A DNA stretch of 64,000 nt from Sulfitobacter sp. F26204 (GTDB lineage Bacteria > Pseudomonadota > Alphaproteobacteria > Rhodobacterales > Rhodobacteraceae). Under the pieces are notes generated by a model. That model was not told where the DNA came from. It did no database searches and saw only the letters and a program-made list of their open reading frames with translations. The first letter of the stretch is position 1. Each line of letters begins with the position of its first letter. Location: positions 62,001-126,000 of the forward strand of contig NZ_JAPMLQ010000003.1 of the NCBI RefSeq assembly GCF_026410305.1, given 5' to 3'. This document shows positions 57,812-62,906 of the stretch, one piece after another. The translations under genes were made by a program, and so were the position numbers.

Positions 57812-58903
57812 CTAATGTCGAAAATCTTGTGGTGACAATCCCGCTGCCGGCATCTTCAGTATCCTTGGTGTCGGTTTCGCTTCGCTCAACTGCCAGGCTG
57901 GGTCGCTCAATGTTTCCCAACGCCAACTGGATTGGCACATATCCCACAAATTGCGCTCCGCACGAAAATCCAGAAGATCAGCTGCCATGCTCGGATCTGC
58001 AAAACTCGCGGCGACATCGCCAGCGCGCCGGTCTTGAAACCGGTATGGGATCGTCTGCCCGCTGACCTTTTCATAGGTCTTGACCAGATCCAGTACTGAA
58101 TGTCCCTCGCCTTTCCCCAAATTGACAGTATGGGACTGTCGATGACGCAATAGCTTCTCAAGGGATTGAACATGTCCCTTCGCCAGATCACAGACATGGA
58201 TGTAATCGCGGATTCCTGTGCCATCAGGTGTGCCATAGTTCTGTCCAAAGATTGTGAGAAAGGGCAGTTCTTTCTTGGCGACCCGCGCCAGAAGCGGCAT
58301 CAGATTGCCACCATTACTCAGCGGGGCCTCGCCGATTAGACCGGAGACATGAGCGCCAGCAGGATTGAAATACCGTAAAACTCCCACGTCCCACCCTTGC
58401 GGTTGGCGTATTTTCTGATTCAGAAATTGCTCGCCCAGCAATTTGGATAACCCGTAGGGATTTGTGTAACGCAATGGAGCGTGTTCCGGGATCGGCAGGG
58501 ATTCCGGTGCACCATAGACCGTCGCACTGGAAGAATAGACCATCCTGTTCACGCCGTGGCGTTCCATTGCGCGCATCAGCGTCAACAAGGATACAATGTT
58601 GGCATTAAAAAACCGCTGGGGATTGGCAAGCGATTGCGGCACGGATTTCTTGGCGGCGAAATGTACCACCGCGTCGATTGCATATGTTTCAAACACCGCA
58701 TCAAGGGCAAGCGAATCCCCCGCATCAACGTCATGGGCGATAACAGCATGGCCTGTGATCTGTGCCAGCCTCTCTGGTACATCCCGTGCCGCGTTCGAAA
58801 AGTTATCCAGGATCACAACTTGGTATCCTGCTTCGACCAGTGCGACATAGGTATGCGAACCGATGAAACCGGCACCACCGGTCAACAGAATTGTCGCAGG
58901 CAT
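57812..58903 (-). CDS. galE: UDP-glucose 4-epimerase
   Basis: A protein of 363 residues from the ATG at 58903. The NAD-binding motif is LLTGGAGFIGSHTYVAL, the catalytic pair lies in VYSSSATVYG and NPYGLSKLLGE, and GIRDYIHVCDLAKGH and TVNLGKGEGHSVLDLV are typical GalE. The C terminus is about 25 residues longer than E. coli GalE. It supplies UDP-galactose to surface polysaccharide made with the sugar transferase and aminotransferase on the other side of the insertion element. Confidence 0.95.
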   Translation of the reverse strand: MPATILLTGGAGFIGSHTYVALVEAGYQVVILDNFSNAARDVPERLAQITGHAVIAHDVDAGDSLALDAVFETYAIDAVVHFAAKKSVPQSLANPQRFFNANIVSLLTLMRAMERHGVNRMVYSSSATVYGAPESLPIPEHAPLRYTNPYGLSKLLGEQFLNQKIRQPQGWDVGVLRYFNPAGAHVSGLIGEAPLSNGGNLMPLLARVAKKELPFLTIFGQNYGTPDGTGIRDYIHVCDLAKGHVQSLEKLLRHRQSHTVNLGKGEGHSVLDLVKTYEKVSGQTIPYRFQDRRAGDVAASFADPSMAADLLDFRAERNLWDMCQSSWRWETLSDPAWQLSEAKPTPRILKMPAAGLSPQDFRH

Positions 58904-59001
58904 ATTCGACCAACTTTCAACGCAATGGTACTTTGCCAAGTTTTATAGTCGGGTGAGCCAAGGATTCGGTTAAGTCGGTTCAGGCTATCAGGCGCTGACC
59001 C

Positions 59002-59009
59002 TATTTTTT
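59002..59009. repeat. 8-bp target-site direct repeat, left copy
   Basis: TATTTTTT directly outside the left inverted repeat, identical to 62229-62236. Eight-base AT-rich duplications are typical of IS1595 insertions. Confidence 0.9.
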
Positions 59010-59033
59010 GGTGATTGTATATTTGACAAACCC
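59010..59033 (+). repeat. left terminal inverted repeat of the IS
   Basis: Begins GGTGATTGTATATTTG and ends ACAAACCC; exact reverse complement of 62205-62228 over all 24 bases. Confidence 0.95.
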
Positions 59034-59079
59034 GTAACGTAAGTGCAGGCTCGGACTCCACTTTAAGGAGATTCGAGAT

Positions 59080-59331
59080 ATGTTTGGCACAACAATTTGC
59101 GGCCACTGCGGAAAGACTGGCACCAAAGCCCAAGAGATTTCCCCATCTGGGGCCAACTTCAAACAAGTCGCAATCTGCTGCTCCTCCTGCAGCGCAATTC
59201 TTGGGGTAACTGGATTTTTCGATGTCGGGGCGGTGGTTAAGGTTCAGGAGAAGAAGATAGATGCAATGACTCACCAGATTGGGGATTTAACTCGGGCGGT
59301 TGAAGATTTGCAGCGACAACTGCGTCAGTAA
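59080..59331 (+). CDS. zinc-ribbon-like passenger protein
   Basis: An 83-residue protein. Two Cys pairs (TTICGHCGKTG and AICCSSCSAILG) resemble a zinc ribbon; a C-terminal coiled coil follows (KVQEKKIDAMTHQIGDLTRA). AAGGAG nine bases before the ATG supports the start. It lies inside the insertion element near its left end, pointing away from that end and opposite to the other cargo. Function unknown; DNA or RNA binding or a regulatory role are possibilities. Confidence 0.75.
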   Translation: MFGTTICGHCGKTGTKAQEISPSGANFKQVAICCSSCSAILGVTGFFDVGAVVKVQEKKIDAMTHQIGDLTRAVEDLQRQLRQ

Positions 59332-59418
59332 GGGTGCGGCAGGACTGAAAGTGGCTCCGCTCGCGCCATGCTCGCTCGGTGACATTCTCTGGCTTTTTCA
59401 TGGTAATGTAATACCCCC

Positions 59419-59469
59419 AATGAGGTACTCATGATACCATGTTACGTGAAGGTATCATAGTACCTCATT
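59419..59469 (+). terminator. long hairpin, probable terminator inside the IS
   Basis: AATGAGGTACTCATGATACC (59419-59438) pairs with GGTATCATAGTACCTCATT (59451-59469) with one bulged base. CGAC and six T follow on the plus strand, so it can terminate the zinc-ribbon transcript. It also covers the stop codon of the minus-strand 45-codon gene. Confidence 0.65.
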
Positions 59470-59602
59470 CGACTTTTTTCTCGCCCGGCTTCTGCTTAAC
59501 GATCTTCTTGAGCTGTTCCTCAAACCGTTCATCGTCGTCGTCCGTCTCTAGCTGGCGGGCGGCTTCTTTGAACTTGTCAAGTTGGGATTTATCTTTAGTC
59601 AT
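59465..59602 (-). CDS. 45-residue passenger protein
   Basis: MTKDKSQLDKFKEAARQLET, then DDDDERFEEQLKKIVKQKPG and EKKVE. It is a charged, helical small protein of a kind I associate loosely with many alphaproteobacterial accessory regions. The ATG at 59602 lies inside the last codons of the ATP-binding protein gene (8-base overlap), which suggests translational coupling. Codon use looks genuine. No function known. Confidence 0.7.
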   Translation of the reverse strand: MTKDKSQLDKFKEAARQLETDDDDERFEEQLKKIVKQKPGEKKVE

Positions 59603-61163
59603 TGCGACTTACTAACCTGTAATGTGAATGTGCATCGCGCGGTTTCCCGCTGGTGACGTAGTCAAGTAGGCCGCGCTTCTCCATCTCGACAAGCATATCG
59701 CGAGCCGTGTGCCATCTGGTTGTTGTAAGTATCCTCAGTGCACCGCTGACGTTGATCTTTCCGTGCTCCATCAAATAATTGACAATCTTCCGCTCTTCTG
59801 GCGTCAAGCTAAACGCTACGGCCCGTCCAAGGCTCTTGTACGCATCGCTATCCAAAGAGTTTGACCTATCGCGGACGTTGTTCCTTAAGGTGCATACGAC
59901 ACTGAGGTTGTCAGTTCGCTTTTGCTTAAACTCTGGCGGTGGCAGGTTTGCAGCAGTCATCTCTGCAACCATTCGTCTAGTGCCTTCGCTTATGCACCTG
60001 ACTTCACCAAACTCTCTTAAACTGCGCATTACAAAAGGGTTTCGCGGGCGATGAGTGCCGACAATTGTCTCTGGAGTGATCTGAGGCATAAATCCCCCCG
60101 GGCTTTCAACCTCAATTCGATCATCAAACATGCGCACGAAAACAGGGGCATTCCGAATGTTAAAAGACCGGTGAACACAGGCGTTGACCAACATCTCATA
60201 CCATGCATCGCGCGGATACTCTGGTACGGTAAAAAACTTACCATCACGAAATTCTGTGAACTCCCGCACACTTGAGTCAATCAAGTTGGCGGCTTCTTTG
60301 ATCACTTCGACAATGGTTCCAGAAACCATTCGATCTTTGACGACGTTATACTGCTTGCCAGAAAGAGCTTCGGTCCCCTCATAGCGGAGGAAATGCACCA
60401 GAAGGCCTGGGAATACAGTCACAGGGTCTTGCGCAAATAGGACAGCGCAAGCGTTGTTGCACACAAAAGCACCGGAGCGCTCTCTGCCTAAGTGATATGC
60501 CTTGAGGATATCAGTTCGCGAATACTGGAGGTCAGTTGATACGTTATCCGTTACAAGCTTTGCAAACCTTGCTATGGCGTTTTCGTCAAAATCGTCGGGA
60601 TAAACTAGGCCGCAAGGCTCTTGCTCAAACGAGCGCTCACCTTTGTCGATCCTGATCTCTTGTTTTTTTGAGTCGCTAAGTTTTTTGCACTCATCGCCAA
60701 GGCGCTCGTAAGCCTCTCCATTTGCAAGCTCAACAAGTTTGCCCTCAACATAGCGAATGCGCGCCAAAACGATGAAATCTTCACCCCCAGATACGTTTTT
60801 TGCTAAAACGCGCTTGGTTTCAAAGCGTCCATCTGGGCAGGCGTTTTCCCCAAGACGTTCGATCTTTGAGAGACCGTCTTGGTCCAGATGCGCGCAACCA
60901 GAAACCGTCCCATCGTTTTCAACCCCAACCGCTAAGACGCCTCCATCGACACTTGGCCCGTTTCCGAACGCTGAGAGGTACTTTGCCAACTCCTTTGGCT
61001 GTGTTCGGGCGGATTTCCGATCAAAGCGATGATCCTCAGTCAACCTAGAGAATAGCGTAACATCATCGCTGTCGTAGATTTGGTCTGGCGAGTAGAGCGC
61101 CTCTATTGGAGGCTTCTCCAGTAGATCAAGTAGTGAAAGTTGGTCGTTTTGTGGGTCTGCCAT
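59595..61163 (-). CDS. Schlafen AlbA_2/HATPase_c_4 type ATP-binding protein (passenger)
   Basis: A protein of 522 residues from the ATG at 61163; a GTG at 61175 is possible. The N-terminal AlbA_2 domain (about 40-165) has FDRKSARTQPKELAKYLSAF and GGVLAVGVENDGTVSGC. A middle region carries ERSGAFVCNNACAVLFAQDP. The C-terminal HATPase_c_4-like part (about 300-430) has EMLVNACVHRSFNIRNAPVF, DDRIEVESPGGFMPQ and RNPFVMRSL, followed by a winged helix (EERKIVNYLMEHGKINVSGA). Such proteins are usually called transcriptional regulators or RNA-binding ATPases. Its use to the element is unknown. Confidence 0.85.
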   Translation of the reverse strand: MADPQNDQLSLLDLLEKPPIEALYSPDQIYDSDDVTLFSRLTEDHRFDRKSARTQPKELAKYLSAFGNGPSVDGGVLAVGVENDGTVSGCAHLDQDGLSKIERLGENACPDGRFETKRVLAKNVSGGEDFIVLARIRYVEGKLVELANGEAYERLGDECKKLSDSKKQEIRIDKGERSFEQEPCGLVYPDDFDENAIARFAKLVTDNVSTDLQYSRTDILKAYHLGRERSGAFVCNNACAVLFAQDPVTVFPGLLVHFLRYEGTEALSGKQYNVVKDRMVSGTIVEVIKEAANLIDSSVREFTEFRDGKFFTVPEYPRDAWYEMLVNACVHRSFNIRNAPVFVRMFDDRIEVESPGGFMPQITPETIVGTHRPRNPFVMRSLREFGEVRCISEGTRRMVAEMTAANLPPPEFKQKRTDNLSVVCTLRNNVRDRSNSLDSDAYKSLGRAVAFSLTPEERKIVNYLMEHGKINVSGALRILTTTRWHTARDMLVEMEKRGLLDYVTSGKPRDAHSHYRLVSRND

Positions 61164-61196
61164 GTTACTCGACACTTACTCGACGCTTACTCGACA
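61164..61196. repeat. three tandem 11-bp repeats before the ATP-binding protein gene
   Basis: On the minus strand the unit (T/C)GTCGAGTAA(G/C) occurs three times between the transposase stop and the next ATG. The transposase stop TGA overlaps an ATG (TGATG) that opens a 10-codon frame ending just before the ATP-binding protein start. Confidence 0.85.
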
Positions 61197-62159
61197 TCAG
61201 ATTTCTTGGTTAGGCGATTTATAGGTTAGGCGCTTGCCGACGACCGCTTCCAGCGCAACTTGAGAACGCTGAGCATCATCAAAGCCATTGGCAACGCGAT
61301 TGTTGTAGCGGAAGTCGAACTCTGCCGCATAGCGGTGCAGGTGCTGCTTGCCACAGTGCTGGTACACGCCTTTCATGCCGCGCTTGAAGATACTGTAGAA
61401 GCCTTCGACGGTGTTGGTGTGAACCTGCGGCTTCTCGCGCTTCACGTATTCGCCCTTGCTGTGCGTGGTGAAGTCGTGACCAGCGAAATCGTCAGCCAGT
61501 TTCGTATACTGTTTGGCTTCGTCGGTGTAGATCACGGCCTCCTTGGCGATGTTCTCGCGCAGGATCGGAACCAGTGTGTCCTTCTTGATATCGTCAACAA
61601 CGATGGACTTGGCTTGCTTGGTGTCGCGGTCCACAAGGGTCAGCATGGCATTCTTGTGAGCAAAGCCACGAGCGGTTTTGCTTTTCTTGTGCTTTGCGCC
61701 GATGAATGTTTCGTCAACTTCTACAGTGCCGCCATTGCCGCCGAACGGAGCAAGCGCACCGTCACGCATACACTCGCGGATGCGGTGCGTCAGAAACCAT
61801 GCGGATTTGTAGGTGATTTCCAGAACACGGTGAAGCTGGTGGCTGCTGATGCCCTTCTTGCTGGACACCATCAGGTGAATGGCTTGCAGCCACTTGTGCA
61901 TTTCGATGTGGCTTTCCTCGAAGATCGTACCTTTGCGCACCGTGAACTGCTTGCGGCACTCGCGGCACTTCCAGAGGCCGTGACGCTCTTTGCCCTCAGG
62001 GTTCTTCTTGCTTGCCTTAGTGCGGACGCCCTCCAGCTTGTAAGCTCGATCCACAACGCCACAGTGTGGGCAAACCGTTCCGTCGGCCCAGATGATGCTT
62101 TCAACGTGCGCAAAAGCAGCGGCTTCGTCGTGCATGTAGGCTTTGGACAGAACGGACAT
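61197..62159 (-). CDS. IS1595-family transposase
   Basis: A 320-residue transposase. An N-terminal zinc ribbon (CPHCGVVDRAY and WKCRECRKQFTVRKGT) precedes the ISXO2-like DDE domain: GGTVEVDETFIGAKHKK, AVIYTDEAKQY and HTNTVEGFYSIFKRGMKG hold the acidic triad. It is full length with no frameshift. Its start is 45 bases inside the right inverted repeat, as expected for the element's own transposase. Confidence 0.95.
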   Translation of the reverse strand: MSVLSKAYMHDEAAAFAHVESIIWADGTVCPHCGVVDRAYKLEGVRTKASKKNPEGKERHGLWKCRECRKQFTVRKGTIFEESHIEMHKWLQAIHLMVSSKKGISSHQLHRVLEITYKSAWFLTHRIRECMRDGALAPFGGNGGTVEVDETFIGAKHKKSKTARGFAHKNAMLTLVDRDTKQAKSIVVDDIKKDTLVPILRENIAKEAVIYTDEAKQYTKLADDFAGHDFTTHSKGEYVKREKPQVHTNTVEGFYSIFKRGMKGVYQHCGKQHLHRYAAEFDFRYNNRVANGFDDAQRSQVALEAVVGKRLTYKSPNQEI

Positions 62160-62204
62160 TGGGTTAACCTCTAACTTGTTGAGATTAAACTACGCATTCA
62201 CCTT

Positions 62205-62228
62205 GGGTTTGTCAAATATACAATCACC
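62205..62228 (-). repeat. right terminal inverted repeat of the IS
   Basis: Exact 24-base reverse complement of 59010-59033, ending ...CAATCACC. Confidence 0.95.
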
Positions 62229-62236
62229 TATTTTTT
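62229..62236. repeat. 8-bp target-site direct repeat, right copy
   Basis: TATTTTTT directly outside the right inverted repeat, identical to 59002-59009. Confidence 0.9.
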
Positions 62237-62306
62237 CGTGGGCCGTTCAAAGCGCGACCTGCGATAAAATTGCGTGAATCAACGCCATTCTCATCTTTAC
62301 CCGTCA

Positions 62307-62906
62307 CTAGATCGCCCCGTGGCCAGTAAACACTGTGACCAGCGTGCGCCAGAAAACATAGGTTTCCATGCGAAAACCCGATTTGGTGATGTAGCGCAGG
62401 TCCAGTTCCAGTTTGACCTGCGTTGCCTGTATGTCGCTGGTATAGCCTTGCACCACTTGGGACAGGCCGCTCAGCCCGGGGCGCACAATGTGACGGTTAG
62501 CGTAATCTGGCAACTGGTGGCGATATTGCCAGGCAAATTCAGGTTGTTCAGGCCGCGGGCCGATAAGGCTCATCTCTCCGCGCAGAACATTGAGGATCTG
62601 AGGTAATTCGTCGATACGGAACCTGCGTAATATCGCCCCAAAACGCATGATCCTGTGGCCTTCTGCATCGGCGAATTTTGCCTTGCCTACCTGAGGCCGC
62701 ATGGTGCGGAATTTGAGCATGACAAAAATACGGTCGTGCTGACCAACACGTTTCTGAAAGTAGAATAACGGCCCTGGATTCAGCCAGGGATTCACCACTG
62801 CCAAGACAAGCGCGAGCGCCACCAGAACCGGTAGCAAGGCCAAAGAAAGACCTACGTCACTTAGCCGTTTGGCGCACCAAAACAGCCGCGTTCCCCCTAC
62901 CCGCAC
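62307..62906 (-). CDS. sugar transferase (undecaprenyl-phosphate phosphosugar transferase type)
   Basis: A 199-residue bacterial sugar transferase (PF02397 type). One N-terminal hydrophobic segment (about 16-38), then LFYFQKRVGQHDRIFVMLKF, RIDELPQILNVLRGEMSLIG, PRPE and RPGLSGLSQV, the catalytic core. It transfers a sugar phosphate to the lipid carrier to start a surface polysaccharide repeat. It lies upstream of the IS and downstream of the DegT-type gene, all on the minus strand with galE. Confidence 0.93.
   Translation of the reverse strand: MRVGGTRLFWCAKRLSDVGLSLALLPVLVALALVLAVVNPWLNPGPLFYFQKRVGQHDRIFVMLKFRTMRPQVGKAKFADAEGHRIMRFGAILRRFRIDELPQILNVLRGEMSLIGPRPEQPEFAWQYRHQLPDYANRHIVRPGLSGLSQVVQGYTSDIQATQVKLELDLRYITKSGFRMETYVFWRTLVTVFTGHGAI

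Follow-up and report, generated by a model that had tools for sequence, protein, structure and literature searches.

The window analyzed here, a stretch of 64,000 nucleotides of the Sulfitobacter sp. F26204 genome (contig NZ_JAPMLQ010000003.1, positions 62,001 to 126,000), carries at its positions 59010–62228 a 3219 bp element of the IS1595 type. It is quite probable, in our judgement, that this element belongs, as a complete member, to a clade of such elements in the Alphaproteobacteria, which combine a fixed chassis (two ends, a transposase gene and a small partner gene that we call c1) with two variable slots whose cargo is exchangeable. Comparison of clade members at the sequence level shows the first slot holding one of many unrelated modules while the transposase and c1 are conserved. 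The minus-strand order in the F26204 element is a 320-amino-acid (AA) transposase (61197–62159), a 21 bp gap, a 526 AA protein that fills slot 1 (59595–61175), and c1 (59465–59602), a 45 AA protein whose gene start overlaps the end of the 526 AA gene by 8 nt; with such a gap and overlap, slot 1 would be read jointly with the transposase and c1. A plus-strand open reading frame (ORF) for an 83 AA zinc-ribbon-like protein (59080–59331) occupies slot 2, convergent to c1 and facing the minus-strand genes.

A clade of cargo-carrying IS1595-type elements

Genome contigs were scanned for relatives of the transposase, and 80 were obtained, mostly from Rhodobacterales and other Alphaproteobacteria (a few are in records named Acidimicrobiales, Verrucomicrobia or others, which may be misbinned contigs). 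Paired ends, sought at each locus with at most 7 mismatches per end and with pairs picked by end similarity only, were found at 52 of the 80 loci. These loci, the F26204 element and one further locus, with identical sequences merged, make up 53 distinct elements, one of which (L016) is an 888 bp deletion relic with related ends and an exact duplication that retains transposase fragments only. An exact 8 bp duplication is present in 46 of the 53 (one was not testable), and the target duplications of the clade are 83% A+T. Apart from the relic, the elements measure 1855–3829 bp, and 52 of the 53 hold at least 0.8 kb beyond the transposase. The initial annotation had taken IS1595 elements to be mostly short and had considered that related ends might be found to flank only the transposase; in this clade extra DNA is the rule, and no transposase-only element was seen among the 53 examined.

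In ORF clustering, these elements consist of the transposase, a segment that varies, and c1, an ORF of 45–71 codons that recurs among them, and the layout of the clade is end, transposase, variable slot 1, c1, optional slot 2, end. A c1 profile matches 46 of the 53 elements, always on the transposase strand, three of the matches being weaker (L131, L117 and L111). In 12 elements c1 ends 63–70 bp from the element end, and in 34, the slot-2 elements, at least 100 nt (up to 1173) follow its stop codon. L179, L182, L183 and L185, whose end sequence is different, have the same gene order. Among 394 family genomes, the F26204 genome included, 28 have its end sequence (at most 3 mismatches) and 26 have c1.

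A rival explanation is that this is an ordinary passenger-carrying IS1595 element, which picked up neighboring genes once and whose cargo is incidental. IS1595-type elements with passengers are indeed on record (MTnSag1/tISSag10 and tISCpe8, in the accessible part of PMC5704250), and a genome-wide search (4.24 Mb) for the F26204 end sequence, again with at most 3 mismatches, finds it once on each strand, so the element is there in a single copy. Against this, extra DNA is nearly universal in the related elements, cargo families recur in distant clades (that of F26204 in Methylobacterium and Azospirillum), and a conserved second gene, c1, bounds the slot; we already disfavor a single incidental capture and regard it as quite improbable.

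The behavior of c1 was compared with that of the transposase and the cargo in 42 elements. Transposase and c1 similarities are correlated (Mantel rho 0.40; 0 of 999 permutations were as high), and c1 identity is 0.578 between elements with the same cargo versus 0.582 between those with different cargo. This pattern shows c1 evolving together with the transposase and not with the cargo. We considered c1 as an antitoxin of the cargo and disfavor this role because c1 tracks the transposase; for the same reason it is unlikely to be a dedicated antitoxin of the 526 AA protein. The most likely role of c1 would be that of a helper or regulator of transposition. Its structure model predicts two helices, at low confidence (mean predicted local distance difference test score, pLDDT, 69).

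Slot 2, among the matches listed, often holds a small convergent gene and elsewhere an ORF on the transposase strand. The products (80–91 AA) of the slot-2 genes of L066, L081, L062, L104, L074 and L084 resemble, by eye, small proteins of the Cas2/VapD type (the two that were scanned gave no Pfam match). Several of these genes, which lie at the right ends of their elements, share the leader CTCGAATC before the start codon.

Cargo exchange in slot 1

Cargo type switches on the transposase tree as often as expected by chance. On a tree of 50 transposases, with cargo labeled by BLAST cluster and restricted to the 35 rows whose types were seen at least twice (10 types), there are 24 cargo changes versus a shuffled mean of 25.4, and 64 of 300 shuffles had as few. 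Coarse labels, which merge all PIN-type, all DUF3800 and all Panacea cargo and add L083 to the tRNA/c11 group (42 rows, 8 types), give 25 changes versus 26.0 (89 of 300 as few). Of the 115 pairs whose transposases are at least 85% identical, 3 share cargo (5.5 by random expectation; coarse, 14 versus 13.2 expected), and at 90% identity or more 1 of 22 does so (1.1 expected; coarse, 4 versus 2.5). The F26204 element and L062 illustrate this: their transposases are 96% alike, and their DNA similarity is confined to element positions 1–1007, c1 (starting with its first codon) and the right end.

The last transposase residues, on the other hand, follow the cargo. In 49 of the 50 transposases, the ten residues after the terminal GKR are 0.61 identical between elements with the same cargo versus 0.33 between those with different cargo, a difference reached in 0 of 5000 permutations, although these permutations ignore kinship, which must be set against the result. 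Whole transposases have no such link with cargo (permutation share 0.42) and serve as the control. Seven elements with PIN-type cargo, spread over different tree branches, have an RDSLGA tail, and other PIN-type elements have other tails. Because the last residues follow the cargo, the exchanged unit begins within the final codons of the transposase gene and ends near the start of c1. These comparisons show the switch points of slot 1 to be the last transposase codons on one side and the vicinity of the c1 start on the other. The clearest case of exchange is L075 and L093, in which the DUF1828 cargo proteins are 95% identical and the transposases 80%.

When two elements come together in the same cell, homologous recombination between them, with the transposase gene and c1 as anchors, would replace the cargo; this is the simplest account of slot 1 exchange. 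The element itself would move by DDE transposition into AT-rich 8 bp targets, judging from the positions of the DDE motif and from the duplications, and the modules, as toxin-antitoxin (TA) or phage-defense genes, might reward the host or penalize loss of the element, a step of which we are less sure.

Cargo could instead be gained by an active cassette process, either site-specific or by aberrant transposition. The sharp boundaries at the transposase tail and the c1 start would fit such a process, as would the divergence of most same-cargo pairs, which is too great for swaps to be recent. So, too, would the twin-palindrome pattern GGTATnnnnATACC, which stands right after the c1 stop codon in 10 of the 34 slot-2 elements (F26204, L062, L066, L081, L084, L088, L092, L103, L104 and L106) and in several of them is followed at once by an ORF of at least 33 codons. 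In F26204 it forms a hairpin (59419–59469; GGTAC..ATACC and GGTAT..GTACC) that starts at the c1 stop codon, and the fold of 59395–59480 has a z of −4.9, with 0 of 200 shuffles as good. However, the palindromes follow c1 and are not at slot 1, the pattern is unmatched in 24 of the 34 slot-2 elements, the Pfam tally of 115 cargo ORFs contains no recombinase family, and the transposase gene and c1 could themselves serve as anchors, so a cassette process seems unlikely to us. We also considered the F26204 hairpin as an integron-like exchange site and rejected this for the same reasons of position and scarcity, which lead us to read it as an operator or terminator.

Several further observations weigh against a fixed chassis with recombining cargo. 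Among 53 same-cargo pairs, divergence is over 5 points higher in the cargo than in the transposase in 41, and the reverse holds in 3; most exchanges would therefore be old, or their cargo would come from a broad pool outside the elements. No c1 was found in 7 of the 53 elements (five distant ones, one whose transposase is broken, and the deletion relic), and in L131 the weak c1 match lies directly after the transposase and before the RelA/SpoT gene, not after it. No transposase relative is present in 5 of the 13 stretches fetched around c1 matches, and on a Paracoccus plasmid c1 is near an IS6 transposase, where it is likely a remnant. End pairs are missing at 28 of the 80 loci, of which 7 gave ends and an exact duplication once the search was relaxed and took the duplication as a criterion. 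Many cargo ORFs match no Pfam family; slot 1 of L140 contains only a 38–39 AA ORF, and that of the plasmid element L189 has no ORF of at least 55 codons. Finally, the F26204 element, which the initial annotation took to be possibly active, is single-copy in its genome.

The F26204 element and its Schlafen-type gene

The terminal inverted repeats of the element (59010–59033, plus strand, the right end in transposase orientation, distal to the transposase gene; and 62205–62228, minus strand, on the transposase side) are complementary at 24 of 24 positions, and TATTTTTT stands just outside them as an exact 8 bp target duplication, with identical copies at 59002–59009 and 62229–62236. Perfect 24 bp ends with an exact 8 bp repeat are far beyond chance. 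The element lies between galE (57812–58939, minus) and a sugar transferase gene (62307–62906, minus), and both ORFs are unbroken. The ends, the duplication, the 3219 bp length and the separation of these two genes were all described correctly in the initial annotation, as was the presence of an intact element with a full-length transposase. An empty site was sought with the joined flanks in 21 genomes (13 of the genus, F26204 included), and none except F26204 itself matched both sides; of the others, one matched the transferase side only and another gave a 40-base match.

The transposase contains an N-terminal zinc ribbon and a DDE_Tnp_IS1595 domain (Pfam E values of 1.7e-12 and 1.4e-33, respectively), scores 195 bits against NCBIfam NF033547 (cut-off 75), and has D149, D213 and E252 as its DDE residues by motif position. 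With these domains and the 8 bp target duplication the element has the features of the IS1595 family, and its 526 and 83 AA ORFs, which are not transposition genes, lie inside the ends as in the class termed tIS. A strict DDE motif test matched 41 of 50 transposases of the clade, a figure not used as a count of intact enzymes. The 45 and 83 AA proteins have only sub-threshold matches in Pfam and NCBIfam; the 83 AA protein, with its CxxC..CxxC arrangement, has a sub-threshold Pfam match at E 0.014 and matches nothing in the plasmid collection at E 0.01. Neither a Tn3-type transposase nor a resolvase was found by Pfam or NCBIfam among the four proteins of the element (the search did not extend to res sites), and Rfam gave no match in 58900–62400 at E up to 1. 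The initial annotation counted three passenger genes in about 2 kb of cargo. There are indeed about 2 kb and three ORFs beyond the transposase, but the 45 AA gene is the conserved partner c1, which co-varies with the transposase, and only the 526 AA gene and the 83 AA gene at the right end count as cargo.

Two other loci deserve mention. L073 and L074 are identical 2532 bp copies in one genome, an indirect sign of transposition; the testable copy is flanked by unequal octamers, as recombination between copies might give. On a Bradyrhizobium plasmid, L194 (3462–7193) has a 43% identical transposase with paired ends and an exact duplication over 3732 bp, a stretch that holds an IS256 transposase and hypothetical genes and no c1.

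The slot 1 cargo of F26204 is a single Schlafen-type gene, whose 526 AA product has SLFN_AlbA_2 (Pfam E 3.5e-9) and HATPase_c_4 (E 2.6e-17) domains. The initial annotation knew of no description of this cargo combination; the gene is, however, not a one-off. Its product shares 40% identity, across 498 aligned positions, with a protein in the same slot of L114, a Methylobacterium element whose 20-nt ends are perfect and which has a duplication, and is 41% identical over 515 positions to an Azospirillum brasilense protein in a remnant (L187) where the Schlafen-type gene lies between a transposase 3' fragment and c1; the L114 and L187 proteins are 51% identical to one another. The initial annotation had also raised the possibility that its cargo genes occur outside these ends. 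Relatives of the 526 AA protein do occur elsewhere, but they are distant: 21 of the 394 family genomes (F26204 included) hold one, the best-scoring outside its own gene being 31% identical, and 376 class genomes searched at E 1e-40 gave two matches, its own and one fragment. That fragment, in a further genome, has neither transposase nor c1 in a stretch of 1952 bases, and a 37% identical relative in Azospirillum argentinense has no c1.

With modest confidence, and by analogy, we suggest that the 526 AA protein may be a nucleic-acid-binding or RNA-cutting defense protein of the abortive type; an RNA-targeting or nucleic-acid-binding abortive role is favored because SLFN13 is a tRNA- and rRNA-targeting RNase, as reported in the available text of PMC5862951. 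It is possible, if not our preference, that the protein regulates the transposon or the host and has no part in defense. Plasmid relatives are annotated as ATP-binding, RNA-binding-domain, helix-turn-helix or RecG-like proteins, there is a weak C-terminal helix-turn-helix signal (E 0.073, far below cut-off), and the one solved relative, 3lmm, is uncharacterized. Against a regulator, the slot in other elements holds TA- or defense-like modules, and residues 31–447 match positions 28–451 (of 1121) of a PADLOC model named pAgo at E 6.4e-45, the name being a label and not a test. A structure model of the protein, made from a two-row alignment (mean pLDDT 41.8), was not used.

Cargo repertoire and relation to known systems

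The Pfam tally (115 non-transposase ORFs scanned at E 0.001) consists of DUF3800 (12 ORFs), PIN (10), DUF1828 (6), SocA_Panacea (5) and SLFN_AlbA_2 (3), with GmrSD, RelA_SpoT, Peptidase_M78, FRG, PIN_10, DUF4411, DUF433 and GIY-YIG once each, and some relatives carry PIN- or Panacea-containing pairs. PADLOC models were matched by one protein each of the DUF1828, RelA/SpoT, FRG and M78 types, and 6 of the 10 proteins scanned matched none; a tally of model matches in the clade includes HEC-06 and others labeled as defense, names which are again labels and not functional tests. The recognizable cargo (DUF3800, PIN, DUF1828, Panacea, Schlafen, GmrSD and RelA/SpoT) thus appears to be mostly TA- or defense-like.

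An 86-nt tRNA gene, leucine-like by eye, is present in slot 1 of four elements (L062 6737–6822, L102 6752–6837, L134 6744–6829 and L083 6740–6825, all minus), with the anticodon UUA, which would read the UAA stop codon, in the first three and UUU in L083. It is followed some 16 nt later by an ORF of about 130–145 codons and a conserved 38–39 AA ORF. It would be unusual for a transposon to carry an ochre-suppressor-like tRNA. In L087 and L117, inspection by eye suggested tRNA-like T-arms, which were rejected, as neither ARAGORN nor Rfam finds a tRNA there.

The F26204 element shares with the IS1595 family its zinc ribbon plus DDE_Tnp_IS1595 transposase, GG..CC ends and 8 bp duplication. Family members named in annotations (ISRm32, IS1595, ISKpn3, ISEc69, ISH4, ISBbi1 and ISAcra1) are, in the 40 plasmid records listed out of 368, 23–35% identical to its transposase; a copy of ISRm32 measures 1191 bp and lacks c1, whereas the clade elements, the relic apart, carry extra DNA and mostly c1. 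The passenger of MTnSag1 is a resistance gene. tISSag10/MTnSag1 and tISCpe8 are similar in having an IS1595 transposase, an 8 bp duplication, ends (of 25 bp there) and a passenger gene, but differ in their resistance passenger (lincomycin in tISCpe8) and conjugal mobilization, and no c1 or exchangeable slot is seen in the accessible part of the source (PMC5704250). In Tn3-family TA transposons, likewise, the TA module has a constant position within the transposition module and is swapped between transposons by recombination; the exchange is proposed there to occur at res sites beside the resolvase (both from the available text of PMC7157771), whereas here no resolvase is seen and the anchors would be the transposase 3' end and c1. 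Tn7-like transposons carry cargo in 96% of cases, and PIN, ImmA, RelA/SpoT and defense genes recur in them as in this clade, but they have several transposition proteins (TnsA, TnsB and others; all according to the accessible part of PMC8649781), while here there is one transposase and a total of 2–4 kb.

Passenger-carrying IS1595 elements, TA exchange in Tn3 and defense cargo in Tn7-like transposons are therefore known, and what appears to be new is the two-gene IS1595 chassis with exchangeable modules; the titles and abstracts searched gave no account of such a chassis with TA or defense modules, the founding IS1595 paper and ISfinder being outside that scope. A bolder reading, which we offer tentatively and hold to be less than probable, is that the clade would be a dedicated small-transposon vehicle for innate-immunity modules, with a two-gene chassis and a built-in exchange slot, in which c1 would be a new transposition co-factor and modules would be swapped as a unit with the transposase tail; it might then be a discovery ground for new TA and defense genes, including the Schlafen-type gene and the ochre-anticodon tRNA module.

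If the chassis-and-slot interpretation is correct, elements the size of insertion sequences would be regular carriers of exchangeable TA- and defense-like genes, and the signature of an IS1595 transposase, a module and c1 would list new candidate modules across the Alphaproteobacteria. The clade would also offer a testable case of cargo swapping in a transposon without a resolvase, with the junction marked by the transposase tail. As a second conserved gene in an insertion sequence family described with a single transposase gene (in the part of PMC8101967 available), c1 would be a direct experimental target.

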